From a virus, in IMG/VR virus record IMGVR_UViG_3300025889_000849, positions 1 through 25,818 of that record: DNA of 25,818 bases; one strand, 5' to 3'. Shown piece after piece: positions 9,909 to 24,858 of this stretch; within the stretch, counting starts at the first letter, position 1, and each line of letters opens with the position of its first letter. The notes under the pieces are model-generated. The model worked only from the letters and a program-made list of their open reading frames with translations. It was not told the origin of the DNA and did no database searches. The position numbers were made by a program, and so were the translations under genes.

Positions 9909-10832
9909 TTACTCTCCTTTGTAGAGTTCTTTAATGAGTGCCTTGCCTTCATCGGTCTTAGCTACAGCAGCATATGCTTTAGCAAAAGCAGACTTTGGCA
10001 TTGCGTTTTCGTCCATGTGGCTCTTTACCAAAGAGTCCAGCTTATCCTTTGGAGAAGCCATGTCAGCTTCCACAGAGGCTTCGCCTACCTCGGACATTGA
10101 AGCACCAATAGCAGCATCAGCCGCCTTGAGAGCTTCTACAATTGCGTCATCCTTGGACACTGCCTTGAGGATGTTGGCCGCAACGTCATTGTCGAAGTTA
10201 GGGAGTATTTCAGTAGCTTGCTTCTTCAGCTCAATAAACTGCTTCTCAATCTCCACTGCTTCGAGTGCTTTCAGGACAGGTGCAGGAATGTCAGACTTGG
10301 CAATCTGTTCCCCGTCCAATTCGATAAACTCAGGGGCCGGAGCCGCCTTAGTAATGGCTTCATCGGTTACGGTGAAACCGTTGTCTTCCAGAGCCTTGGA
10401 GAGACGGTCGTTCTCAGCTTTCAGGGCGTCAACTTCAGCAAGGAGTTCGTCGGACTTTGCAGTGTCCTCGTATTCCTTGTCAGCTTCCTCGTCTTCCTTC
10501 TCGGCGTCGTCTTCTTTGTCAGCTTCGGTGTCCTCTGCCTTCTCAGCATCGTCTTCCTTGTCTGCATCGTCTTCCTTGTCTGCATCGTCCTCAGCCTTGC
10601 CGAACATTTCATTACGTTCTGCTTCAGGCATCTTAGACAGTTCTTCCTCAGCCATTTTCATGGCCTCGTCCTCGGAGGCACCTGCTTCCATGTGGAAGGC
10701 TTGGCGTTCCTTCAAGTATTCTTCTTGCATTGGTGAATCCCTTTTTACAAGGCAAATTGTGGCGGCTTGGTTAGCTGGCCGGTCTACCAGAGACAGCTCG
10801 TCCAGTTCCAAGTCCATCAGTAGGGTAGTCAT
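9909..10832 (-). CDS. Acidic capsid scaffold carrying the protease-tail motif SLVDRPAN
   Basis: A 307-aa protein. Residues 13-21 read LSLVDRPAN, a motif that in XkdF-type phage proteases normally lies at the C-terminal end of the protease itself. Residues 80-124 are an almost pure Asp/Glu/Lys/Ala repeat of DADKED units. The middle is coiled-coil-like (KSDELLAEVDALKAENDRLSKA at 127 onward), and the C-terminus has two basic-helical stretches. Scaffolds are typically acidic, coiled-coil and removed before packaging. The ATG overlaps the protease stop as TAATG. The arrangement suggests an assembled protease-scaffold unit. Confidence 0.75.
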   Translation of the reverse strand: MTTLLMDLELDELSLVDRPANQAATICLVKRDSPMQEEYLKERQAFHMEAGASEDEAMKMAEEELSKMPEAERNEMFGKAEDDADKEDDADKEDDAEKAEDTEADKEDDAEKEDEEADKEYEDTAKSDELLAEVDALKAENDRLSKALEDNGFTVTDEAITKAAPAPEFIELDGEQIAKSDIPAPVLKALEAVEIEKQFIELKKQATEILPNFDNDVAANILKAVSKDDAIVEALKAADAAIGASMSEVGEASVEADMASPKDKLDSLVKSHMDENAMPKSAFAKAYAAVAKTDEGKALIKELYKGE

Positions 10833-11749
10833 TAGATGGTCTCCCGTTTGGCTTTACCGCCGATAGAAAAGGCCTTTAGCTGGCCAGACTTAACCGATTC
10901 CCAGACCTCGTCATCCTGCACTTTAAATGCGACAATCCAGCCCTCTCGGTCACTGTGAACCCCAAGGGAGTCCCCAATCTCTTTAGTCAGTGGGAGGCTG
11001 TGTACTACCAGACCGATCTGGTCTCCGGCATGCATGAGCTTGCCTACTCGTACATCCTCCATAAATTTGTTTGCTGCTTTGACCATGGTGTCAGCTTCAA
11101 TAACGTCACCCTGTCGGTCAATCAGTGGGATGCCTCCGGAGGAGACTACAGAAGCCCAGCCCCAAACGAGACGTTGTTCCTCGTCAGTCTTCAGGATGGT
11201 TCCCTCTACGTCAGACTTAGACAGCATGTCCGAAACGGAAAAGTCAGATTCCCACATACGGCAAGACCAGTACCCCGGAGTAGTCTTGTCCTTTTTGGCG
11301 TCGCACTTGTGGCGTGCCCGGAAGGAAGCTCTGGCCTTTGGGTCGTCCCGGCGAATCTCCATAGACGGGGAGCCGAAAGTAACCCTCTTAACTTTCTCCC
11401 CATCCTTGACGTAAACACCGAATTTCTTAGCAGAACCTTTGGGAAGTCGGAAAGGCTTGTCTAGCCGTACCTTTTCTCCCCGGTACTCTGCCTTCTCAAA
11501 CACCTTGCCATAGACTGCAAACTCTGCTGCGTTCTTTGCTCGTTCTGCTGAACCCGTCCGTTCTAGGACCGACTTAAATACTCGGTCAAACTTGGCTTTG
11601 TTCAAGGGAGCCTCCGTCTTTGGTTGTGGGCTGCTTTTAGCTGCCTCCCACTGCTTCTCTGTGTAACCATGCTTGATGGTCAAGTGTCGTTTGAAGTTGC
11701 CACTGTTCAGGTTCTCCCTGCCACAGTCGGGGCAATCGTAATATTTCAT
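10832..11749 (-). CDS. Prohead protease, XkdF-type, with N-terminal C2H2 zinc finger
   Basis: A 305-aa protein with three parts. Residues 6-27 are a classical C2H2 finger (C6-X2-C9-X12-H22-X4-H27). Residues about 97-166 hold a domain with SFRARHKCD at 142-150 and DKTTPGYWSCRMW at 154-166, which I know from other viral proteins of uncertain role. Residues about 192-300 are the XkdF-like protease: WGWASV, DRQGDVIE, GKLMHAGD with likely catalytic His240, and KAFSIGGK with likely nucleophile Ser295. It would cleave scaffold and capsid during head maturation. It sits just before the scaffold, the usual place. Catalytic residues are assigned by motif, not by alignment. Confidence 0.75.
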   Translation of the reverse strand: MKYYDCPDCGRENLNSGNFKRHLTIKHGYTEKQWEAAKSSPQPKTEAPLNKAKFDRVFKSVLERTGSAERAKNAAEFAVYGKVFEKAEYRGEKVRLDKPFRLPKGSAKKFGVYVKDGEKVKRVTFGSPSMEIRRDDPKARASFRARHKCDAKKDKTTPGYWSCRMWESDFSVSDMLSKSDVEGTILKTDEEQRLVWGWASVVSSGGIPLIDRQGDVIEADTMVKAANKFMEDVRVGKLMHAGDQIGLVVHSLPLTKEIGDSLGVHSDREGWIVAFKVQDDEVWESVKSGQLKAFSIGGKAKRETI

Positions 11750-11757
11750 CTGGCCCC

Positions 11758-12486
11758 CTATGGGTTATCTGCGTAGTCCTCAACTAGAACCATGTCAAAG
11801 TTTACACTAATCTTTGTGTTGGATGCACCGGCAATGACTCTGGTGTCAAAGTCAGTCTTCTCCGGAAACCTCAAAGGCAGTGTGAAGTCGTAACGGTACG
11901 AGACGGAAGCCTCTGCCTTGTGAGCAATCCGGAAGTTCTGGCCCACTGGCCTATGCCACCCCTCAAACTCGATAGCTTGGTCCTTGGTCCCCGAGACAGA
12001 TACGGAGGTAATGTAGGCCCAATGTCCTGCAGGAACCGTGTAAACCCCCATGAGGGTCTGGTTGTAAGCTGCGTCAATCTGTGCAACCACTGTACCCACC
12101 CCGGAAGTCACCCTTGCAGTGATGGTCCCGACGTTGTCCGTAGAGCCGAGGTATATCATCCGGAAGACCCGGAGGAAGGTGTTTGTGGTGGAGGCTGCTG
12201 TGAGCCCCGTCATGGTCACTTCCTCGGTCTGCAGGGCGTAGTTCTCGTCTAGCCCCTGAACCTGTACGACTCCGGTGTCCCCGGCATCTGTGGAGATAAG
12301 GTAGAGGGTCTGAGCCGTTGCAAGAGCTGACCAAGGGTAAAGACCACCGGCAGACCAGACGGTCTCCTTAGTTCCCCCAACGTCCGGGTTGTAGCCGAAC
12401 TTGGAGACTACGGAATGACCAGCTACCTGCCCCTGTGAAATGGAGAGTAGGCTGTCCTTGAATAGCTCTCTTGCGTACTGGCTCAT
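11758..12486 (-). CDS. Virion structural protein, beta-rich, unknown role
   Basis: A 242-aa protein beginning SQYARELFKDSLLSISQGQV followed by VAGHSVVSKFGYNPDV. It is rich in Thr/Val/Gly strands and has a WHRPVGQNFRI segment near residue 175. I know this opening ('Q-G-x-V-x-G-H-S-x-x-x-K-F-G-Y-N') from structural proteins of marine phages, but not with a defined role. Its place between portal and protease suggests a head-associated or head-fibre protein. The start ATG overlaps the DUF1127 stop (ATGA), indicating coupling. Confidence 0.7.
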   Translation of the reverse strand: MSQYARELFKDSLLSISQGQVAGHSVVSKFGYNPDVGGTKETVWSAGGLYPWSALATAQTLYLISTDAGDTGVVQVQGLDENYALQTEEVTMTGLTAASTTNTFLRVFRMIYLGSTDNVGTITARVTSGVGTVVAQIDAAYNQTLMGVYTVPAGHWAYITSVSVSGTKDQAIEFEGWHRPVGQNFRIAHKAEASVSYRYDFTLPLRFPEKTDFDTRVIAGASNTKISVNFDMVLVEDYADNP

Positions 12487-12647
12487 TTCTTGCCGTCCCT
12501 CAGTGCTTCATCAATCTGGAGCCGGGAGATACCAATATCACTCAGTTCCCTGTCCGTCATATTCATCAAACTCGAACGATCTTTGGCCAGACGGTTCCGG
12601 CGTTCCATCGACTGAATTAGGTTCTGAAATCGTGTCTTTAGGTTCAT
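12483..12647 (-). CDS. DUF1127 small basic protein, overlapping the portal gene end
   Basis: A 54-aa frame on the minus strand, out of phase with the portal gene and overlapping it by 110 nt. Its start is ATG 12647 and its stop is TGA 12485-12483, forming ATGA with the next ATG. The C-terminal half reads LMNMTDRELSDIGISRLQID, the DUF1127 signature (L-x-D-R-E-L-x-D-I-G-[IL]-x-R). The N-terminal half is basic (MERRNRLAKDRS). DUF1127 proteins of alphaproteobacteria are small, arginine-rich and have been linked to RNA turnover and phosphate or stress responses. In this phage the role is unknown. Ribosome binding is weak, so reinitiation or coupling from portal translation is likely. Confidence 0.8.
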   Translation of the reverse strand: MNLKTRFQNLIQSMERRNRLAKDRSSLMNMTDRELSDIGISRLQIDEALRDGKK

Positions 12648-13908
12648 AGCTCAGCTCTGCAATATCCATGAGGTCTTGGATAACCTCTGGGTGATCGTGT
12701 ACGGTGATGTTTGCTTGGTTCAGGTTCCGGAGGAAGCCAGAGATTTGCTGCAGGTCATGCGGTGCAACGTCAGATGCCTTAATCTTCGGCATGGTCTCAG
12801 GAGACAAACCGTTCAGCTCCCAGAGGGGCTTCACAAGCTGCTTGTTGAGAACATCGGTGATAGTGGTGATGTAGCTCTCCAAGGCCCGGAGGTAAATGTC
12901 TGTCTTAGACTTAGACAAGGCGTAAGAGCCGCCTGACTGCTGAGAGCCCAACAACAGGAACTCAGAGAGGACAGACCGTGCAATGTCATGCTGGTAACGG
13001 CTGACAATCGGGTCAATCTCAATGTTCCGAGTACCAGACGAACTCATCAGCTCGATATTGACCAGAGGGTTACTGGTCGGGGAACCGTCCTTGTCCGGGT
13101 ACATGTCGGAGGGCAGGATTAGGTAACCCTGTTCGTTGAACTTAACGTCCCGGAGGATGGTCTCGAACTCTGCCTTGATTGCAGCCTGTGTATCGGTTGC
13201 ATCAGCTGACAGGTACTCCGAAGGGAGACGACCAACCGGAATACCGGCAAGCTCTCGTTCTACAGCAATCGCCTCAATCGCCTGAAGGTTGTTCAGGTAC
13301 TCATAAGAGGTGTAGGCGTTCCGGAGGATACTACGACCAGAAGGGTCTCCGTTGATCGTATGCGTCTTGTAGTGGATGGACTTGGACTTGGGGATGTAGT
13401 TGGAGATTGAACCCGGACGAGAAGACGACTGGTAAACCCCCAGTACGTCACCGGACTTCAGCTCTACATCAAACCGGTCAATGGTCCAAGGTGCCCTTGC
13501 AGCAATTTTCTTGATGCCTAGCTTGCCATCTTTACGACGTTTGTAGACCAGCTCAAACCACATGAACCCGTAAGACAGGAACGAGAGGCTCTCAGAGATA
13601 TGGTCATCCAGAGAATGGTCCATATCCTCAAGGATGGACTCTAGGAACCCTGCTGCAGCCTGTGCTTCAGGGCTGTCATCAGCTGGTTTTACCCGGAGGT
13701 CAACGTCCCGGAGGATTTGTTCTGCTGAGTAGAGGACAGCTCCAATGGTGCTATCGTTCTCTCGCATTTCCCGGAACTTCTTAATGGCCTTGCGGCCTTT
13801 CAGCTCCGGAAGGAACTCATCGGCCCGGATTCCGCCATTATGGACGTTATTTCCCGAAATACCGAGTTCTTTTACTGCTTTTGTCGGGGAAAGTATCTTT
13901 TTAGCCAT
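12538..13908 (-). CDS. Portal protein
   Basis: I chose ATG 13908 (456 aa). AGGGGAG lies at 13920-13914, 5 nt upstream; an in-frame GTG at 13914 would overlap that site. The portal forms the ring at one vertex through which DNA passes and to which the terminase docks. Features seen are IRADEFLPELKGRKAIKKFR near the start, a long helical region (EQILRDVDLRV), the aromatic FLSYGFMWFELVY core segment at about 110-125, and the C-terminal helices (DVLNKQLVKPLWELNGLSP). This pattern matches the Mu gp29/DUF935-like portal family. It lies after the terminase and before protease and capsid, as usual. The last 110 nt also encode the DUF1127 protein. Confidence 0.85.
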   Translation of the reverse strand: MAKKILSPTKAVKELGISGNNVHNGGIRADEFLPELKGRKAIKKFREMRENDSTIGAVLYSAEQILRDVDLRVKPADDSPEAQAAAGFLESILEDMDHSLDDHISESLSFLSYGFMWFELVYKRRKDGKLGIKKIAARAPWTIDRFDVELKSGDVLGVYQSSSRPGSISNYIPKSKSIHYKTHTINGDPSGRSILRNAYTSYEYLNNLQAIEAIAVERELAGIPVGRLPSEYLSADATDTQAAIKAEFETILRDVKFNEQGYLILPSDMYPDKDGSPTSNPLVNIELMSSSGTRNIEIDPIVSRYQHDIARSVLSEFLLLGSQQSGGSYALSKSKTDIYLRALESYITTITDVLNKQLVKPLWELNGLSPETMPKIKASDVAPHDLQQISGFLRNLNQANITVHDHPEVIQDLMDIAELSYEPKDTISEPNSVDGTPEPSGQRSFEFDEYDGQGTE

Positions 13909-13958
13909 TTTCACTCCCCTTTTGAGGGTCCTCGTGTTCTTAGGGACCCCTCATACGG

Positions 13959-14016: not shown

Positions 14017-15381
14017 CTATCGGAGCCCCTGTGCAGACGAATAAGCCAGCCTCAGCTGCGGTTTAGCATAGCCGTTCAAGGCCAAGTCAGTGATTGCCCA
14101 CACCATTGCGTCTAATCGGTCAGGGGAACCCGTGGAACCAAGTGGCTCCCACTGGACCATCTGGTCCTCTAGGTCGTTTAGTCCTCTGACATGAAAAACC
14201 TTCCCCTGCTCGTATAGAGCACTAACTGGTTCGGCACGGGCCATTTTGCCTCTGGATGCATGTACCAGCTTAATGGGGACGGTTGGGTCCTCGGTGTGCA
14301 GAGTATGCCTCACCATGTCCCCACCCTGATTCTTCTCTGCTACAATCCGGTCTGCCTCGTACTCATGGTACAGCTCGATAGCTTTTGAGGCCCACTCTTG
14401 GGGACTGTATCTCTCAGTGTGGTCTGCAAGGACATAAGCCTTGCCGTTGATGTCCACACCTGCAACCACAATACCGGTCATGTCGGACTCAGCATTGGCT
14501 GAGACTGCAGGGTCAATAGATACGATAACTCTCTGAAGGTCGGGAACGTCCTCTGGCTCAATCTCACAGGAGGCCAGAAGGGTACGGTTCCACAAGGCTC
14601 CAGAAGCCTCGTCTAGGATTTCTGCGTAGAGTTCCTGCCTACCCAGTCGGGTTCCCTCGTAGGTGGCCTTGACTGCGTCTAGGAACGTGTCTGCAAGGTT
14701 TGCAGCATTGTCGAAAGTGCTACCGGTTGTGACGATGGTCTTTTCGTCAGCAATGATGTTCCGGATTAGCTTGGTGGTCTTCGGGGTGGTGGTGATGAAG
14801 ACTTGAGGGTGTTTGCCCAGTCGAAGTCCGAACATCATCATGTCCCAAGTCATCTGGGCATTACGCCATGCACAAAGCTCGTCAGTCCAAGCTGCATGAC
14901 ACTGTGGACCCCTGAGACGTTCCGGGTCCTCTGCCGAGAAGAACACTGCCTTGGCACCGTTGGCCCAAGTGATGGTGTTGTTCGTTGGAGACCACTCCGG
15001 GGCTCCCATTGGGACACCCTTATATGTCTTGTCTCCGGGCCAGCATACGTTCAGGAGACCGGAGTCACCTTCAACCATTACCTTCCGAACGTCCCCTTTT
15101 GTTGGGGCTACACAATGAATGATTTTATCACCGGATTTGACCCGGTGTCGGACCCACTCAGCTCCGGCTCTTGTCTTCCCCCAGCCACGGCCAGCTAGTG
15201 CTAGCCAGATGTTCCAGTCCTTGCCCTTGGGCTCTAGTTGGTCCGGACGTGCCCAGAACTCCCAACTGTGCTGAAGCTCTGCTACCTTCTCAGGACCCAA
15301 TGCTGTAAGAGCTGCTTGGACTTGCTCGTCAGGTAGCTCTCTGAGGGTCTGTGCTGTGATGGGTGGGACTTTGTAGCCCAT
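14017..15381 (-). CDS. terL: Terminase large subunit (ATPase-nuclease)
   Basis: A 454-aa packaging motor. The Walker A is at 61-70 (ALAGRGWGKT) and Walker B is HAAWTDELCAW with Asp167-Glu168. The coupling-motif region has FITTTPK at about 195-201. The nuclease domain carries Asp290 in SIDPAVSANAESDMTG, AEKNQGGD at 348-355, and Asp424 in SPDRLDAMVWA. The combination resembles terminases of alphaproteobacterial phages and the gene transfer agent. SD GAGGA is 7 nt before the ATG. It follows the small subunit after 3 nt and precedes the portal. Confidence is high from multiple catalytic motifs. Confidence 0.93.
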   Translation of the reverse strand: MGYKVPPITAQTLRELPDEQVQAALTALGPEKVAELQHSWEFWARPDQLEPKGKDWNIWLALAGRGWGKTRAGAEWVRHRVKSGDKIIHCVAPTKGDVRKVMVEGDSGLLNVCWPGDKTYKGVPMGAPEWSPTNNTITWANGAKAVFFSAEDPERLRGPQCHAAWTDELCAWRNAQMTWDMMMFGLRLGKHPQVFITTTPKTTKLIRNIIADEKTIVTTGSTFDNAANLADTFLDAVKATYEGTRLGRQELYAEILDEASGALWNRTLLASCEIEPEDVPDLQRVIVSIDPAVSANAESDMTGIVVAGVDINGKAYVLADHTERYSPQEWASKAIELYHEYEADRIVAEKNQGGDMVRHTLHTEDPTVPIKLVHASRGKMARAEPVSALYEQGKVFHVRGLNDLEDQMVQWEPLGSTGSPDRLDAMVWAITDLALNGYAKPQLRLAYSSAQGLR

Positions 15382-16898: not shown

Positions 16899-17158
16899 AC
16901 TAAAGTCTTACTTAAGGTGCACTACAAAGTGGTATTAAAAACCATTAAGCTCCTCTTACTAGAGTCTAACTTTAGTCTAGCTTAAGGTAGTTAATTAATA
17001 ATATTAAACTTTACTGGTTTCTCCTTGAGTCCCTAAGTGTCCTTGTGACTTATGGGAAACTATCGTCTTACTATAGTAATACATACCTCTCTCTCACAGA
17101 TTTGGTTCACTACCTAAAAAGGGCTTGTTATCAAGGGTTTACGAGTGTGGGTCCTCCC

Positions 17159-17223
17159 GTATGACTCCCGTATGACTCCAGTGTGGCTCTGGGTTCCTTG
17201 GTATGACTCCAGTGTGGCTCTGG
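17159..17223 (+). repeat. Triplicated GTATGACTCC with a 23-bp perfect repeat
   Basis: GTATGACTCC occurs at 17159, 17170 and 17201. The 23 bases at 17170-17192 recur exactly at 17201-17223 (31-bp offset). Each copy holds a GACTC (GANTC) site. Confidence 0.85.
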
Positions 17224-17245
17224 TAAGCCATTTGCACTGTGCCTG

Positions 17246-17476
17246 TCAGCTATCCCTTTTTTGCGTAGTCATAACTAATTTTCTTATTTTGGAAATATAA
17301 CCCACTGCCAGAGCCCCTAAAACCCCTCCTAGAAACACCAAGGGACCCACTCCCGTACACGTTGCACAACTTATGCTAGAGGAGAGACGAGGGTGTGGCT
17401 CCGGTGTCACAGTCAAGGGCTTTCGTGTAAACTTTAAGATAAACAGTACGGTATGGTTCTTGATAGGTGTAGTCAA
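17246..17476 (-). CDS. Doubtful small membrane protein
   Basis: A 76-aa frame with a TTG start at 17476 (AAGGA 7-8 nt upstream). The C-terminal half contains a hydrophobic helix (GPLVFLGGVLGALAVGYI, about 44-61) followed by basic KIRK. The N-terminal half is Thr/Pro-rich. The rare start and the repeat-rich surroundings argue against it; the well-formed membrane segment with positive flank argues for it. The same TTGACT could instead be a -35 box. No family recognised. Confidence 0.3.
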   Translation of the reverse strand: MTTPIKNHTVLFILKFTRKPLTVTPEPHPRLSSSISCATCTGVGPLVFLGGVLGALAVGYISKIRKLVMTTQKRDS

Positions 17477-17535
17477 ACTGAGTCCTTCAACTTAAGTTTA
17501 ACTCCAGTATTTGGAGGGTCGTACAACTAGAGGTG

Positions 17536-17854
17536 GACTCCCGTGTGACGATAGTGAGAATTGAGTCCTACTACTTAAGGTTACGGAGGGACTGGACACA
17601 CGTTGTCGTAGTAATAAAACTTAAATCAAATTTTAGATACTGCATCAGCTGACCCCCGCCCTCTCGTTTTACGATGGCCTAACTTTGATTCATCAACTTA
17701 AGGTTAGAGACCCCCAGTGCAACCTCTGGTTGACTCCCGTTTTACGATAGACAAACTTTATCTCAAATTTTAGCAATTGCCCCCCCGTTGCAACCAGAGG
17801 TAGACTCCCGTTTTACGAGAGACAAACTTTAGCTCAAATTTTAGCAATTGCCCC
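17536..17854 (+). repeat. Iteron-like block GACTCCCGTnTnACGAnAG
   Basis: Copies lie at 17536-17554, 17732-17750 and 17803-17821, with a partial one near 17661-17677. Two copies are preceded by CAACnAGAGGTnGACTCCCG (17791 and, with variation, 17524). The 52-bp units 17732-17783 and 17803-17854 match at 50 of 52 bases with a 71-bp offset and share the tail CAAATTTTAGCAATTGCCCC. A perfect inverted repeat CAACC-TCT-GGTTG is at 17720-17732. Confidence 0.85.
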
Positions 17855-17928
17855 AGTCACAACCGGAGGTGAGGTGTCCCAAAAGGAGAGACGACAGTGA
17901 GTCCTTCAACTTAAAGTTAGAGACCCCC
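17693..17928 (+). repeat. Direct repeat TCAACTTAAgGTTAGAGACCCCC
   Basis: Copies at 17693-17715 and 17906-17928 match at 22 of 23 bases. Shorter relatives (CTTCAACTTAAG, CTACTACTTAAGG) lie near 17486 and 17569. They bracket the iteron-like units. Confidence 0.8.
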
Positions 17929-18148
17929 GGTGTCGATGAGGTATCCAAAAACGATAAATAAAATTTGATCTATCAACCCAAAATTGCCCCAAATACCAGA
18001 GTCCAAACAAACGTCCCACTTCAGTTTCTCCCCGGTACAAACGTACCGACACCAGAGCCAAACCCCTGTCCTCAAAAGTAAACACCCGTTTACATCCCCT
18101 TCCCAGTTTGGACTCCGTCCCTCTTTGGAAAGGGTTCCCCTGTGAAGC

Positions 18149-18176
18149 CCCTGTGAAGCCCACTGACAGGCTTTGG
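18149..18176 (-). repeat. Hairpin element copy 2 in the intergenic region
   Basis: Matches 13959-13986 at 26 of 28 bases. The stem AAGCC/GGCTT with an 8-nt loop is kept; the two changes fall at a stem end and in the loop. Immediately alongside, CCCTGTGAAGCC is duplicated (18138-18160). Confidence 0.6.
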
Positions 18177-18250
18177 CTGTTCCAGAGTGTGCCAGTGCCA
18201 GACTACAGCTAGAGCCTGTCTACGGGCCTTGTGGAGACGACCAGAGACTG

Positions 18251-18288
18251 AACAAAAAAGAAGGCCCACCGGATGAACCAGTGAGACC
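18251..18288 (-). terminator. Intrinsic terminator after the three-gene cassette
   Basis: The transcript folds GGTC-T-CACTGG, loop TTCAT, CCGGTG-GGCC (10 pairs with one bulge, two G-T) and is followed by TTCTTTTTTG. It lies about 95 nt past the stop at 18382 and would end leftward transcription before the repeat region. Confidence 0.8.
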
Positions 18289-18310
18289 TGAGTTGGGAGG
18301 GTACTAGAGA

Positions 18311-18324
18311 CTAGCTCCAGCTAG
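18311..18324. other. Perfect palindrome CTAGCT-CC-AGCTAG
   Basis: A 6-bp inverted repeat with a 2-nt centre, just upstream of the terminator and outside any gene. It could be an operator half-site pair or chance. The 18289-18381 stretch holds nothing else I recognise. Confidence 0.3.
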
Positions 18325-18381
18325 GAGGAGAGAAGCCCATCGTTTAGCCAAAGGCACGGAGACTGGGCAATCCGGATTCTG

Positions 18382-18555
18382 TCAGAAGGGCACCTGTACG
18401 GTGAGCCCTTGTTCGATGTCGTCCTGTACCGAGTTCAGCTGTGCCTGAAGGCTGGCTTCCGTCTTCGGGTCTGTGCAGTCAAACAGTGCCTCTCGAAGCT
18501 CGGTACGGAGGACCCGGAGGTCCTTCCAAGTGGACTGGTCCCACACGTCAATCAA
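18382..18555 (-). CDS. Small helical protein of unknown function
   Basis: I chose TTG 18555 (57 aa): GGAAGGA lies 8 nt upstream and the start overlaps the previous stop. The frame stays open to 18633 (83 aa from another TTG), and GTG 18546 is also possible. The protein is helical and charged, with WDQSTWKDLRVLRTELREAL and later EASLQAQLNSVQDDIEQGL, a likely short coiled coil. No family recognised. It is the last gene of the cassette enclosed by two terminators. Confidence 0.55.
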   Translation of the reverse strand: MIDVWDQSTWKDLRVLRTELREALFDCTDPKTEASLQAQLNSVQDDIEQGLTVQVPF

Positions 18556-18778
18556 GGCCCCAATCCTTCCGTTCGGTGTTGTCGAAGTAGCCCTCAAGGT
18601 AAGCCTGTTTTGTGGTCTCACAAGGGTTGTCAACGAGGACTCCCCAGAGCTTGCTCCCGAGGCCGTGGTAGTGGGGCTTGGGTGGACGACCGTAATAACT
18701 GTCCATTTCCCCGGCTTTGTGGGCCCATCCCCATGGGGTGTCTGGGTCGTACTTTGGTTCTGTACTCTGGTTAGGCAT
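18548..18778 (-). CDS. Small protein of unknown function
   Basis: I chose ATG 18778 (76 aa), overlapping the upstream stop by 8 nt, with GGAGA 9 nt upstream; a TTG at 18799 would add 7 residues. The first half is rich in Pro/Tyr/Trp (DPDTPWGWAHKAGEMDSYYG, GRPPKPHYHGLGSKLWG). A short helix follows (ETTKQAYLEGYFDNTE). There are no membrane segments or signal. Middle gene of the cassette. Confidence 0.65.
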   Translation of the reverse strand: MPNQSTEPKYDPDTPWGWAHKAGEMDSYYGRPPKPHYHGLGSKLWGVLVDNPCETTKQAYLEGYFDNTERKDWGLD

Positions 18779-18998
18779 AGTAAGTGTTCTCCACTTCAAG
18801 GGTAAGCTCTGCGGCCTCGTCTAGCCATTGCTCAAGGGTCAGCTCATTCAGACGGTAAACGTAGACAGACCGTGTACGGTAGATTCCGGAGTTTGGGTCG
18901 TCATAGACAAAGTACCAGTAACCCTCGCCTTTGTAGAGGCTAACGTACGGGTTGGGTAGTTTACTGTTCACTGCAGCTTCGATAGTCCGGGTTTGCAT
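18771..18998 (-). CDS. Small protein of unknown function, first gene of the cassette
   Basis: I chose ATG 18998 (75 aa) because AGGAG lies 6 nt upstream; the frame extends to a TTG at 19028, which would sit in the promoter. The protein has many Tyr (YVSLYKGEGYWYFVYDDP) and strands, followed by an acidic helix (LEQWLDEAAELTLEVE). No family recognised. With its own promoter it may be expressed at a different time from the genes upstream. Confidence 0.65.
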   Translation of the reverse strand: MQTRTIEAAVNSKLPNPYVSLYKGEGYWYFVYDDPNSGIYRTRSVYVYRLNELTLEQWLDEAAELTLEVENTYYA

Positions 18999-19026
18999 CG
19001 GTAACTCCTGTTTCTGTGATACCCCC

Positions 19027-19054
19027 AATTTAAACCCTCCTCTGGGGAAGTCAA
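19027..19054 (-). promoter_or_regulatory. Sigma-70-like promoter for the three-gene cassette
   Basis: On the minus strand TTGACT (19054-19049, 5 of 6 to consensus), a 16-nt spacer and TAAATT (19032-19027, 4 of 6). Transcription would begin near 19020, about 20 nt before the AGGAG of the first gene. It lies just after the upstream terminator, where a new promoter is needed. Confidence 0.6.
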
Positions 19055-19064
19055 CCCCTGAAAC

Positions 19065-19102
19065 GAAAAAAGGGACACAAGAGTCAAAACCCCTGCATCC
19101 CT
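19065..19102 (-). terminator. Intrinsic terminator of the metabolism operon
   Basis: The transcript pairs AGGGATGCA with TGTGTCCCT (nine pairs, two wobbles); four more weak pairs can extend inward around loop TTTTGA. TTTTTT follows immediately. It starts 6 nt past the stop at 19108. Confidence 0.85.
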
Positions 19103-19107
19103 CGTTT

Positions 19108-19296
19108 CTAGACCTTGGGCCAGACGGTCACAAAACCGTCATCCTCTAGGTCAACCGTCTTGGCCTCCGTTGGCCCCGTTGCCGGAGTTACCGGGTTAGC
19201 AACCGTCACCACCGTTGCCGATGCCGTTGTTGCAGGAACCACCGTTCCCTCCGTTCCCGTTGTTCCCGTTGTCGTCTCCATCGGTGCTGTCGTCAT
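19108..19296 (-). CDS. Doubtful Thr/Ala-rich frame, mostly a shadow
   Basis: A frame of 62 aa from ATG 19296 (AAGGA 7 nt upstream), extendable to GTG 19323. It is nearly all Thr, Ala, Val and Pro until its end, where VDLEDDGFVTVWPKV looks like normal coding sequence. In the Thr/Ala part almost every codon ends in G or A, unlike other genes here. This is the footprint of the Asn/Gly-rich frame overlapping it (19196-19357). The last 15 residues, or the whole frame, may still be used, since the stop is 6 nt before the terminator. Confidence 0.3.
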   Translation of the reverse strand: MTTAPMETTTGTTGTEGTVVPATTASATVVTVANPVTPATGPTEAKTVDLEDDGFVTVWPKV

Positions 19297-19357
19297 CGTC
19301 TGTTCCTTCGTCTTCTGGTTCACTGGTAGAGCCTCCGTTTTTTCCCTTGCTGGTCAA
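19196..19357 (-). CDS. Asp/Asn/Gly-rich small protein in an overlapping frame
   Basis: A 53-aa frame starting at TTG 19357, which overlaps the previous stop TGA. It runs STSEPEDEGTDDDDSTDGDD, then GNNGNGGNGGSCNNGIGNGG, ending DGC. Glycine codons vary freely in the third base, as expected if this frame is selected. After the TAA at 19198 the same frame reads PGNSGNGANGGQDG before a second stop, so an older, longer reading frame is likely. Such Asn/Gly-rich ends occur on small phage proteins of unknown role. No clear SD; translation may depend on coupling to the exported protein upstream. Confidence 0.5.
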   Translation of the reverse strand: MTSKGKNGGSTSEPEDEGTDDDDSTDGDDNGNNGNGGNGGSCNNGIGNGGDGC

Positions 19358-19989: not shown

Positions 19990-20003
19990 TGTTCGGGTCC
20001 TTT

Positions 20004-20093
20004 TCAGAGGGTGAGAAAGAGAGGCGAGTAGATACAAGCCAGAATGATGGTGAAGAAAGAGAGGATGAGGACCATCCAGAAAATCTGTGCCAT
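20004..20093 (-). CDS. 29-aa single-span membrane peptide
   Basis: ATG 20093 has AGGAG 6 nt upstream. The product is almost entirely one hydrophobic helix (MAQIFWMVLILSFFTIILAC and then IYSPLFLTL). The longer frame to 20198 crosses the terminator hairpin and is unlikely. It might be a small membrane effector or pinholin-like peptide, but nothing proves it. Confidence 0.6.
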   Translation of the reverse strand: MAQIFWMVLILSFFTIILACIYSPLFLTL

Positions 20094-20120
20094 TGGTGGC
20101 TCCTGTTCGTTGTGTCCCTC

Positions 20121-20155
20121 ATAAATAAAGGGCCTCAACCCGAAAGTCAAGGCCC
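20121..20155 (-). terminator. Probably leaky terminator after phoH
   Basis: The transcript pairs GGGCCTTGAC with GTTGAGGCCC (10 pairs, two wobbles) around loop TTTCGG, and TTTATTTATG follows. It begins 10 nt past the phoH stop. No promoter is visible before the next gene, so readthrough is likely. Confidence 0.7.
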
Positions 20156-20164
20156 CCAGAGAAA

Positions 20165-20839
20165 TTAAATTCCCTCCTCCATGAAAACCACAATCCACTT
20201 CTTGCAGATGTCGGAACGGACGATGTCGTCCACCGTGAACTCAACCACCGGAACCCCGACGCCATGCTTGCGGCTCAGCTCGATAAGTGTAGCCAGACCG
20301 TTGGCAGACCGGAGGTCCGACTGTTGAACGTCCCCGTTCAGGACCAGCTTTGAACCTTGGCCCACCCGAGTCACCAGCATTTTAATCTCTGGAACGGTGA
20401 TGTTCTGGGCCTCGTCCACAATGATGAACGAGTCCTCGAAGGACCGACCCCGCATCAAGGCGAGAGGGGCAATCTCAATTTTCCCGTTCTTCAGTCCGGT
20501 GTCCACAGCCCCCTTGCCCATCCACTTCTCCAGAACGTCCAGAGTCGGGAGAGCCCAAGGAGCAGTCTTCTCCAGCAAGGTCCCCGGCAGGTGGCCGATG
20601 TCCTTACCTACAGAGACGTGTGGCCGGGTGATGACGACCTTGTCAATCTCACCGTCCAGCAAGGCCAGAGCTGCAAAAGAGGCTGCAACAAAAGTCTTCC
20701 CGGTGCCAGCTGGACCGAGAACGATGGTCTGGTCAGAGGTCTTGAGGGAGTTCAGGTAGAACTTCTGAGCCTCCGTCTTGGCCTCCAGCTGTGGTCCTTC
20801 CCGAAGGAATTTAGACCGTTTCCCACTTGTCTTCCGCAA
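20165..20839 (-). CDS. phoH: PhoH-family P-loop ATPase
   Basis: A 224-aa protein with Walker A GPAGTGKT at 42-49, Walker B FIIVDEAQN (Asp142-Glu143), and the family segment TRPHVSVGKDIGHLPGTLLE at 71-90. The GDVQQSDL motif at 169-176 also matches PhoH. PhoH-like proteins are common in marine phages; their proposed link to RNA metabolism or phosphate stress is unproven. The start is TTG 20839, with AGGAGG 6 nt upstream and overlapping the previous gene by 29 nt. Confidence in the family is high, low in the precise role. Confidence 0.93.
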   Translation of the reverse strand: MRKTSGKRSKFLREGPQLEAKTEAQKFYLNSLKTSDQTIVLGPAGTGKTFVAASFAALALLDGEIDKVVITRPHVSVGKDIGHLPGTLLEKTAPWALPTLDVLEKWMGKGAVDTGLKNGKIEIAPLALMRGRSFEDSFIIVDEAQNITVPEIKMLVTRVGQGSKLVLNGDVQQSDLRSANGLATLIELSRKHGVGVPVVEFTVDDIVRSDICKKWIVVFMEEGI

Positions 20840-22237: not shown

Positions 22238-24151
22238 CTAAGTTATGTCTACAATCTCACAACCGGAGTCTCCGGTGCAAGCCAAGGTTTGAGCCCCAGA
22301 GGTACTATCCTCCAACTCGTACTCAGCCAGCTTGTCCCAGTCAATCGACTTGGGCATTCTGGACAGTGCCTCCTCGTACTCAGCCTCCGTACACTCCTGA
22401 TACGGAGCTTGTTGGTAGGTGTGGTCCGAGTGAGGCAGGAACGAGACACCGGACATTTCGTCAAAGTGCTTGAAGACAAAGGCCCCCACGTCCATCCATT
22501 CCTCGTCTCGGACAGAGACGGTGATGGAAGGCTTGTGTTCACACCAGTGTCTCTGGTAGGTGAGCCACGTCTCCAATTGCTCAATTGCTGTTTGGTCCCC
22601 TCGGACTTCGGTGTGGTATCCAGCCGGAGCCTTCACCGGAAAGGAGAAGACAGTGGTGGAGTTCGGGTTCATCACGTCTGGCTCGCAGGGGACACCGGAG
22701 TCCATCAGGAACTCCGTCAGTGGGTCCTTGTTGTCACCCCGGACAGTCCGAATGTAGAACTCACTGTGTCGGGCGTGAATGCCAGAAGCAGAGTCCACCA
22801 GCTGAGAGACAGTGCCCGAAGGCTTGACGCAGGTGATTGCAGCAGAGGCAGGAATGCCCAGCTTTGCAGCCCACTCTTTGTTTGTCTCCACAGCAGTCCG
22901 TTTCAGGTTCTCCAGAAGTCCGTCCAAGAGCTGGTTCTCCGAGGTCATCAGTGGGTTGTCCATGATGCCGGTAAGAGAGACCCCCAACAGACGTTCTTCC
23001 TCGGTGTTGTTCTGCCACACCTTCCGAAGGTAAGGGAACTTGGTGAAGCTGGACTGGATGGTCCCGAGGATGGTTGCAAGTCGTACCTTCTCCCGGAGGC
23101 TCACCTCGTCATCCGTTGACCGGACTACAACCTCAGTCAGATTGCAAAACTGGTACGGTCGGAGGATGATTTCTGAACAGGGATTCGTGCCCCACTCGAA
23201 ACCACCTGCCCTACGTCCGTTCTTCACAGCCTGAGCTTCAGCAGCCTTCCGGTTGAAGATGCCACGTTCACCAGACTTCGACTCAATCAGTGCCCCCCAC
23301 TCTTTGATGAACAGCTCTGCATCCGGCTTCTCTGTGTAGCAAACGGAGTTGTTTGCCAAGGCACGTTGGCCCTCGGTGTCCCACCAGTTACCGGACTTGG
23401 CATGACGCATCCGGTCATCAGACAGGTTGGACAAGCTAATCATGGCTGAACGTCGGACACCACCGACAACCACAACCTGACCGATTTTACACATGAGGTC
23501 ATGGCACTCCAGAGAGGAGAGCTTTCGACCCTTGGCCTTGTGGAAGGTGGCCACTGCAAAATTGAACAGGTCAACCAGAGGGGCAGGGCCGGAGGCTCGA
23601 CCACCAAAGGTCTTCAGTCGGGCACCAGCTGGACGGACTTTCGACACGTCCCACTTAGGGACCTCTCCAGCCCACAGCAGGGACAGGACTTGACGGAACG
23701 CCTTTGCCCAGCCTTCCTTACTGTCCTTGACCACTACTGTAGTCTCACTCATAAACAGCTCGTCAGGAACTTCTGGGAGCTTCGACACAAACTGACGTTC
23801 AACCGAGAAGCCTACCCCGGTCCCACAGAGGAGAATGAACATGGCCTCGTCAAAGGACTTCGGGTCATCCACCGGCAGGTAGCTGCAGTTGTAGCCGGAG
23901 GTGTTGTCCCGGTGCAGTGCTGGTCCTGCTGTCATCATGGCACGCATTGAAGGCATCACCCGGAGGCTCAGGATTGCCTCCCGGATTTCTTCGGCTGTGT
24001 CTGCAGGGACCTTGTCACCGACAACCTCCGTCATGTACCGGTCCACAGTCTCGGCCCAAGTCTCCCGGCGTCCCTTGTCTTCTAGCCAACGGGCGTACCG
24101 AGACTTAGCAATGAATTGCTGGTAGGGGGTTGGTAGGTAGTTATCCGACAT
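22238..24151 (-). CDS. nrdJ: Class II (B12-dependent) ribonucleotide reductase
   Basis: A 637-aa monomeric reductase of the Lactobacillus leichmannii type. It reduces ribonucleoside (tri)phosphates with adenosylcobalamin. Visible elements are Cys89 in SGYNCSYLPV and the finger loop NPCSEII at 323-329, with Cys325 (thiyl), Asn323 and Glu327. Cys336 in FCNLTEV pairs with Cys89, and Cys625 and Cys631 in ACTGDSGCE carry electrons from thioredoxin or glutaredoxin. All needed residues are present. SD AAGGAAG is 9 nt before the ATG. It indicates a host that makes or imports cobalamin. Confidence 0.93.
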   Translation of the reverse strand: MSDNYLPTPYQQFIAKSRYARWLEDKGRRETWAETVDRYMTEVVGDKVPADTAEEIREAILSLRVMPSMRAMMTAGPALHRDNTSGYNCSYLPVDDPKSFDEAMFILLCGTGVGFSVERQFVSKLPEVPDELFMSETTVVVKDSKEGWAKAFRQVLSLLWAGEVPKWDVSKVRPAGARLKTFGGRASGPAPLVDLFNFAVATFHKAKGRKLSSLECHDLMCKIGQVVVVGGVRRSAMISLSNLSDDRMRHAKSGNWWDTEGQRALANNSVCYTEKPDAELFIKEWGALIESKSGERGIFNRKAAEAQAVKNGRRAGGFEWGTNPCSEIILRPYQFCNLTEVVVRSTDDEVSLREKVRLATILGTIQSSFTKFPYLRKVWQNNTEEERLLGVSLTGIMDNPLMTSENQLLDGLLENLKRTAVETNKEWAAKLGIPASAAITCVKPSGTVSQLVDSASGIHARHSEFYIRTVRGDNKDPLTEFLMDSGVPCEPDVMNPNSTTVFSFPVKAPAGYHTEVRGDQTAIEQLETWLTYQRHWCEHKPSITVSVRDEEWMDVGAFVFKHFDEMSGVSFLPHSDHTYQQAPYQECTEAEYEEALSRMPKSIDWDKLAEYELEDSTSGAQTLACTGDSGCEIVDIT

Positions 24152-24269
24152 TTCTTATTACTTCCTTGATTAGATTGTCCTCGGTGACGGCAGTAAGTAC
24201 AGCCGTACTCATTACAAAGCAGAGCCAGCCTACGACTAGGGCCAGTGTTATCGCATATTGAGTTCGCAT
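24141..24269 (-). CDS. 42-aa single-span membrane protein
   Basis: It starts at ATG 24269 inside the end of the previous small gene (22-nt overlap) and its stop overlaps the NrdJ start. One hydrophobic helix (YAITLALVVGWLCFVMSTAV) is followed by a polar tail (TEDNLIKEVIRN). No family recognised. Confidence 0.6.
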   Translation of the reverse strand: MRTQYAITLALVVGWLCFVMSTAVLTAVTEDNLIKEVIRNVG

Positions 24270-24367
24270 AGAATCCACGTCACTAGGTTAAAGACTACAA
24301 AGGAGGTCCCGAGTAGGACCCCCGTTATAAGTGGGGCTAGGGCTACGACAATCAAGACCGTCAGCAT
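24248..24367 (-). CDS. 39-aa single-span membrane protein
   Basis: The ATG at 24367 is fused to the MazG-like stop (TAATG). The protein is hydrophobic over nearly all its length (LTVLIVVALAPLITGVLLGT, then SFVVFNLVTWILC) with a short ELNMR end. No family recognised. Confidence 0.6.
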   Translation of the reverse strand: MLTVLIVVALAPLITGVLLGTSFVVFNLVTWILCELNMR

Positions 24368-24858
24368 TAGAACAGGTCGTCCAGCTTCGGCGGTTCGTAG
24401 TTTGGCCCCTTCAGGACTTTACCGTCGTCCCGGTAGATGGGCTTACCGTCGTCACCCAGTTTGCTCATGTTGGAACGGTGGACCCTCTCGAACACCTCAT
24501 CAATGGGCAGGTCGAACGTAACGGCCATTCCGTAGATCACGTAAAGAAGGTCCGCCAATTCTTTGGTAAAGGCAGGTTTGTTCGTTCTTCCATCGGGTCT
24601 ATACCAGACCACTGGCGTTTCTTGGCCCATTTCATCTATTTCTTCGTCAATCAGGTCCAAGCGCATTTCCAGAAGGTCTCTGTTTTTACGGTCATTAATA
24701 TCAACCCCCACAGGCTGACCCATCGCCAGTGTGAATGCCTTGACCGCATCGTAGTGAACGGAGGTTGAACGGGGAGTTCCGTTGGGGTTGTATTCTACCA
24801 TTTTTACTGCTAGCTCCATTGATTCGTCGTAAGGCATATTACCAAAGATACTCCTCAT
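24367..24858 (-). CDS. MazG-like NTP pyrophosphohydrolase
   Basis: A 163-aa protein starting at ATG 24858 (ATGA with the upstream gene). The all-alpha NTP-PPase pattern is visible: EMRLDLIDEEIDEM at 64-77, then KELADLLYVIYG at 99-110 with Glu100 and Asp103, and HRSNMSKLGDDGKPIYRDDG. These acidic residues bind magnesium. The family hydrolyses dNTPs to monophosphates; in marine phages it may also alter stringent response signals (debated). The first 50 residues are extra and unknown. Located in the nucleotide operon. Confidence 0.88.
   Translation of the reverse strand: MRSIFGNMPYDESMELAVKMVEYNPNGTPRSTSVHYDAVKAFTLAMGQPVGVDINDRKNRDLLEMRLDLIDEEIDEMGQETPVVWYRPDGRTNKPAFTKELADLLYVIYGMAVTFDLPIDEVFERVHRSNMSKLGDDGKPIYRDDGKVLKGPNYEPPKLDDLF

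Follow-up and report, generated by a model that had tools for sequence, protein, structure and literature searches.

A DUF1127 Small-Protein Gene at the End of the Portal Gene of a Marine Phage, and a Portal Tail That Looks Overprinted on It

Introduction

Judged by its sequence, a marine bacterial virus known from a 25.8-kb record (this whole stretch of DNA is called the window below) carries a genuine gene for a small protein of the DUF1127 family, and the end of its portal protein is read, in another frame, from the same nucleotides. The likeliest role of the small protein is that of a host-directed regulator, acting either as CcaF1 does, on RNA, or as the proteins of Agrobacterium and Escherichia coli do, on the sensor kinase PhoR; we give this reading a probability of roughly 0.6. 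Its regulatory function, target and timing, and the direction in which the gene was transferred, are what we infer from the comparisons set out below.

DUF1127 is among the largest families of bacterial small proteins, with an arginine content of ~14% on average, and its mode of action, through an RNA or a protein target, is disputed (PMC12501420). Because several unrelated phage lineages keep DUF1127 genes and apparently replace them, infection offers an independent test of how the domain acts.

The DUF1127 Gene and Its Product

All recognisable genes of the window lie on the minus strand. The small gene (12483-12647, minus strand) runs from an ATG at 12647 to a TGA ending at 12483 and encodes a protein of 54 aa (MNLKTRFQNLIQSMERRNRLAKDRSSLMNMTDRELSDIGISRLQIDEALRDGKK). 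A first-pass annotation had placed a 54-aa DUF1127 frame at the right positions, without naming the strand. It had also described a 110-nt overlap with the portal gene and an ATGA junction with the next gene, and both follow from the coordinates: the portal open reading frame (13914-12538) and the small gene share positions 12538-12647, and the ATGA at 12486-12483 contains both the DUF1127 stop codon and the start codon of the gene that follows (11758-12486, minus strand), which encodes 242 aa and belongs to phrog_8198. Since an in-frame stop codon lies just upstream of the ATG at 12647, an earlier start is impossible; the bases 5' of that ATG do not form an evident strong ribosome binding site.

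The profile search against Pfam that the annotation had proposed as a check gave a significant match to PF06568 (DUF1127) of 34.7 bits (E 1.5e-8; curated cut-off, 23.3 bits), with residues 10-45 aligned to positions 1-36 of the 37 in the profile. The protein is arginine-rich, as had been stated, with eight arginines in 54 residues (14.8%) and four lysines besides. Residues 32-42, DRELSDIGISR, contain the conserved DIG[IL] motif, and D32, R33, E34, L35, D37, G39, and R42 are invariant across 13 viral DUF1127 copies. In PHROGs the match is weak (phrog_26566, E 0.0022). The predicted model has helices at residues 3-28, 32-37, and 42-51, with a mean pLDDT of 78 and values of only 59-69 over residues 1-20; neither sequence nor fold comparison found a usable solved relative in the PDB. 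In predicted structures of the family, the arginines lie in two helical segments (PMC12501420). The profile search of the whole record found no second DUF1127 gene.

The short bacterial DUF1127 proteins (CcaF1, the SDPs of A. tumefaciens, and YjiS of E. coli and Salmonella) are of a similar size class and match PF06568 over nearly the whole profile; they also share an arginine content of ~15% and the motif DREL.DIG[IL]. The window copy differs from them in being phage-borne and in overlapping a structural gene, and the sampled host proteins stand apart from the window set in the tree described below.

Selection on the Two Overlapping Frames

A DUF1127 gene occupies the same site in six viral contigs with closely related portals. 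They hold four distinct versions of the protein: one identical to that of the window (L009 and L003) and others with 91% (L010), 74% (L011), and 61% (L012 and L013) amino acid identity to it. The frame is open and its start is kept in all six, and in all except L010, which has TAATGA, a 4-nt ATGA or GTGA joins it to the gene that follows. That the whole frame, its start, and its junction are kept over such distances is more than chance would give. The out-of-frame gene that the first-pass annotation had proposed looking for in related phages is thus retained down to 61% identity; it had also named stops in this frame beside an intact portal frame as evidence against the gene, and none occur where the gene is present, most other portal relatives having no such gene at this site.

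Neutral simulation of the overlap between the window and L012 gave an expectation of 20.8 changed DUF1127 codons, whereas 13 of 30 had changed, a number as low as this arising in none of 5000 runs. The other pairs likewise have fewer DUF1127 changes than expected (P 0.001-0.10), and a stop appeared in the DUF1127 frame in 24-68% of runs, the highest value belonging to the most divergent pair. Changes in the portal tail, on the other hand, are near the neutral expectation in every pair (21 versus 21.6 for the window and L012). The pN/pS ratio of the DUF1127 frame is 0.44-0.65 inside the overlap and 0.19-0.44 outside it, so that the last third of the gene, which lies beyond the portal, is likewise constrained; the ratio of the portal frame is 1.1-2.1 in the overlapping tail and 0.02-0.05 over the last 100 core codons, a large contrast, although the counts themselves are small (~30 overlap codons and four distinct sequences). 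A dN/dS-type comparison of both frames, as had been suggested, therefore finds constraint on the DUF1127 frame and none on the portal tail, and these comparisons indicate that the DUF1127 frame is under purifying selection.

An open frame without a product, held open by the portal frame, would also be short and overlapping and would have a start context as weak as the one seen here. Such a chance frame would hardly match PF06568 at E 1.5e-8 or keep its start, length, and stop in four distinct versions, and the constraint falls on the DUF1127 frame rather than on the portal frame and extends to the third of the gene outside the portal. We regard the chance explanation as refuted as far as sequence can refute it, with a very slight likelihood left to it.

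The Portal Tail as the More Recent Frame

The portal gene (12538-13914, minus strand) encodes 458 aa (Portal_Mu, E 6.9e-29; phrog_113, E 1.5e-68), and its product is 69% identical to the portal of roseophage CRP-6. In the overlap (12538-12647, minus strand), a variable portal tail of 37 aa and the first 36 DUF1127 codons, in the +1 frame, are written in the same 110 nt. Over the last 40 core residues the portals are 95-100% identical, but identity in the tail is only 34-81%, and the drop coincides with the DUF1127 start. When the portals of the window lineage are aligned with 11 further sequences, the alignment is good up to about this point and there is none beyond it; portal relatives without a DUF1127 gene at the site have different tails, mostly acidic and of differing lengths. 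DUF1127 homologues are found across bacteria and phages, whereas the portal tail of the window can be aligned with that of none of these portal relatives.

Because the DUF1127 frame is conserved and the portal tail is unconstrained in the overlap, the last 37 portal residues look overprinted on the DUF1127 gene. The tail looks like the newcomer, a lineage-specific and unconstrained frame, and the small gene like the older of the two. The first-pass annotation had spoken of a gene hidden under the portal gene; the overlap stands, but the relation is better described the other way round. On the simplest reading of this pattern, an ancestral portal with a variable, mostly acidic, and change-tolerant tail would have received, behind its core, a DUF1127 gene of the kind found upstream of the terminase in CRP-212 and other roseophages, and the new portal tail would be that gene read in another frame. 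As in other overprinted viral genes, one frame would be old and constrained and the other recent and loosely constrained; the difference is that the recent frame in the window is the tail of a longer structural gene, so that the overlap would be a clean case of a structural protein tail read from the gene of a regulator.

In another contig (L014/L049, IMGVR_UViG_3300037682_000026), whose portal is 88% identical to that of the window, a collagen-like gene replaces the stretch behind the portal, ahead of the DUF1127 and protease genes. The DUF1127 gene of this contig is found 2.9 kb farther along, still in the head cluster and with the protease gene immediately after it. From this contig, the region that follows the portal seems to be a hot spot of exchange.

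DUF1127 Genes in Other Phages

When 50,697 phage records were searched in translation with three different DUF1127 queries, 32, 38, and 24 records matched at E values of up to 0.1 or 1; one query was a consensus-like sequence written by ourselves, and its result was reproduced with real viral sequences. The organisms or hosts named among these matches are all phages of Rhodobacterales, Rhizobiales, or Methylophilales. Matches to tape-measure genes of Pseudomonas phages, at E values of about 1-2, we attribute to chance. In IMG/VR, a pattern scan yielded at least 493 confirmed DUF1127 loci, and together with the many named phages this implies that DUF1127 genes are common in phages; the earlier view that a phage copy is unusual has to be given up. 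What is rare, in the records compared, is the position under the portal gene, which is confined to a small lineage: it was seen only in the six contigs of the window lineage and is absent from other relatives of the portal or of phrog_8198, the phrog_8198 genes outside this lineage having no DUF1127 gene ahead of them.

The copies are easy to miss. That of SIO1 (NC_002519.1, ~19995-20177, between the MazG and ribonucleotide reductase genes) is missing from the RefSeq annotation, and most others are labelled "hypothetical protein". The suspicion that relatives had been overlooked is correct to this extent, but CRP-603 gp69 and the genes of the Melnitz phages are annotated as DUF1127. A description of phage DUF1127 genes was not found in the open-access literature that we searched. 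In bacterial genomes, relatives were found with an alignment as query, and none with a single protein.

Among relatives picked by their portal or phrog_8198 genes, not by DUF1127, CRP-6, G007, G009, and G020 carry one DUF1127 copy each. The broader statement, exactly one copy in each relative, holds less well: G019 (48.7 kb) and most short fragments have none, and Atu_ph07 has two; it should be mentioned that many IMG/VR records are fragments.

Two Kinds of Phage Copy and the Empty Slot

The cobaviruses (SIO1, P12053L, ICBM1, and CRP-5), CRP-6, and CRP-403 have one DUF1127 gene per genome and share with the window the genes for MazG, a class II ribonucleotide reductase (RNR), and PhoH. The order MazG-DUF1127-RNR, mostly with 4-nt overlaps, is found in SIO1, P12053L, ICBM1, CRP-5, and CRP-403; CRP-6 has MazG, DUF1127, and one extra gene before RNR. 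In the window, the corresponding genes, all on the minus strand, encode a MazG-like nucleotide pyrophosphohydrolase (24367-24858; phrog_671, E 1.2e-33; PRA-PH, E 7e-11), the class II RNR (22238-24151; phrog_367, E 8e-184), and, in the same metabolic cluster, a PhoH-like protein (20165-20839; PhoH, E 3.7e-63); ThyX and a thioredoxin/glutaredoxin-like gene are also present. The usual DUF1127 slot is a 215-nt gap between MazG and RNR (24152-24366, minus strand) with no PF06568 match. Apart from this empty slot, the window differs from the MazG-DUF1127-RNR subfamily in that its protein has no C-terminal WL.EDK tail.

The closest phage copies are those of the roseophages CRP-212, CRP-603, and CRP-345 and of viral contigs such as L310 and L313, a group that we take to be HMO-2011-like, and they lie near packaging genes. 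Identity to the window protein is 64% over 36 aa for CRP-212 and 45% over 51 aa for L310. In the CRP-212 kind, however, the DUF1127 gene stands upstream of the terminase small subunit and not under the portal, and these phages have a different type of terminase and portal. At 67 of 76 loci, near kin of the window DUF1127 have a terminase small subunit of this kind nearby.

A tree of 95 proteins groups the window lineage, the L014 contig, and CRP-212 (100/99) and places the MazG-RNR copies in a separate set (99/99), and FastTree agrees, but the tree is based on 58 columns, has CRP-212 on a very long branch, and shows bootstrap values that have not settled. A simple move of the window copy out of the MazG-RNR slot was considered and dropped, as the tree, with its few columns, separates the two sets. 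The empty slot, together with the weak placement of the window copy beside terminase-side phage copies, has the look of a replacement. Subject to these cautions, we prefer replacement by another phage DUF1127 to relocation of the original gene: the MazG-RNR copy of related phages is missing, and its function would seem to have been taken over at another site.

The flanks of 80 viral DUF1127 loci contain genes for Hsp20-like proteins (31), RNR (16), MazG (14), GH19-like endolysins (14), and ATP synthase subunit c-like proteins (13), and in none of them was a terminase or portal of the window type found; since the loci were sampled by similarity, these counts do not represent frequencies in the population. 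Marine phages commonly carry Hsp20, MazG, and PhoH, and for this reason the neighbourhoods alone are no proof of function.

Possible Functions of the Phage Protein

DUF1127 genes lie near packaging genes in two groups of phages, that of the window and the CRP-212 kind. A role late in infection or linked to packaging is therefore conceivable, and the protein might be produced along with the portal and serve in packaging or in head assembly, an assembly role having been suggested by the first-pass annotation as well. In the window lineage it is encoded between the portal and a head-cluster gene, in a region with the terminase large subunit (14017-15381, minus strand; Terminase_6N/6C) and a putative head maturation protease (10832-11749, minus strand; XkdF-like, Peptidase_S78_2, E 5.6e-17); in the CRP-212 kind it is close to the terminase small subunit, and the L014 contig has it in the head cluster before the protease. 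Most relatives of the portal and of phrog_8198, however, have no DUF1127 gene in their head cluster, so that its position is not conserved with the head genes; the larger relatives CRP-6 and G009 carry it in the nucleotide module instead, and the overlapping portal tail is not conserved. Neighbourhoods that change from phage to phage, and head clusters of relatives that mostly lack the gene, make a dedicated role in assembly improbable.

We favour a host-directed regulator. The phage DUF1127 proteins retain the motif and the arginine content of the family. With a start codon of its own within the last part of the portal gene, this phage copy of a bacterial family would be a basic, helical small protein that works as a regulator in the cytoplasm of the host, mimicking the DUF1127 proteins already present there and docking on negatively charged host targets, which may be sensor kinases such as PhoR, or RNA. 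Phosphate and stress regulation, or RNA turnover, would thereby be shifted during infection.

If the target is RNA, as the first-pass annotation had suggested, the protein would be a CcaF1-like RNA-binding protein that alters the decay of host or phage mRNA. According to the summary of Grutzner 2021 given in PMC12501420, CcaF1 of Rhodobacter sphaeroides binds RNA and takes part in sRNA maturation. This bacterium belongs to the same order as the likely host, the relatives of the window portal and DUF1127 being roseophages, and the 54 residues, eight of them arginine and four lysine, suit an RNA-binding protein. YjiS of Salmonella, in contrast, is membrane-associated and interacts with SsrA, without RNA association (PMC11707872, PMC12501420), its single arginine mutants are still functional (PMC11707872), and the Agrobacterium proteins work through binding of PhoR (PMC12501420). 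The first-pass description of the family as regulators of RNA turnover is accordingly one reading of it, against which stand these protein-binding results and the behaviour of YjiS. We consider an RNA-directed action possible, with the odds clearly against it.

If the target is PhoR, the protein would bind this host kinase and reset phosphate uptake in support of nucleotide synthesis. The DUF1127 proteins of A. tumefaciens and E. coli bind PhoR directly, and an Agrobacterium mutant is complemented, including its control of pstS, by DUF1127 proteins of Sinorhizobium, Rhodobacter, and E. coli (PMC12501420). Phage copies stand in MazG-RNR-PhoH modules; that of L147 has PhoH directly downstream, and that of L180 (2770-2937) lies between an Hsp20 gene and a downstream gene for a PstS-like phosphate-binding protein (PF12849, E 5e-47). 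Adjacency to PstS was seen only in this single case, however, and the gene of the window lineage is distant from the phosphate and nucleotide genes. Moreover, Agrobacterium and E. coli take up more phosphate when DUF1127 is lost; additional protein should then reduce uptake, and the benefit of this to a phage is not obvious. We rate this action as likely as one on RNA, and the comparisons favour neither target.

More broadly, it is conceivable, at somewhat less than even odds, that phages of Alphaproteobacteria, and of Methylophilales, commonly carry a DUF1127 gene, in most cases a single one whose site in the genome is interchangeable, as a shared means of taking over a host hub under the control of host DUF1127 proteins, either PhoR and phosphate or RNA turnover, and that in the window lineage the same gene also gave the portal a new tail in another frame.

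Other Features of the Window and of Related Contigs

Three-frame translation of the MazG-RNR gap gives only two short, overlapping, hydrophobic frames of ~40 aa each, resembling small membrane proteins.

A gene for an ATP synthase subunit c-like protein of 73-76 aa (PF00137, E 6e-11 for L156) lies ~190 nt downstream of DUF1127 at L156, L163, L164, L166, L169, L173, L177, L178, L194, L197, L203, L205, and L219. The L173 contig (56 kb) has RecA-like and DnaB-like genes nearby, identified by eye, suggesting that the subunit c gene is a solitary one carried by a phage.

Positions 16900-19350 of the window comprise ~2.4 kb without a convincing gene and contain several families of degenerate direct repeats, among them a 71-nt unit at 17711-17852, CTCCCGTTTTACGA boxes, and TGAGTCCTTCAACTTAAG boxes. 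No tRNA or Rfam match was found in this region, which might be a replication or control region. Near the edge of the window, a tandem repeat of ~105/216 nt at 258-726 perhaps lies inside a gene of the tail-fibre type.
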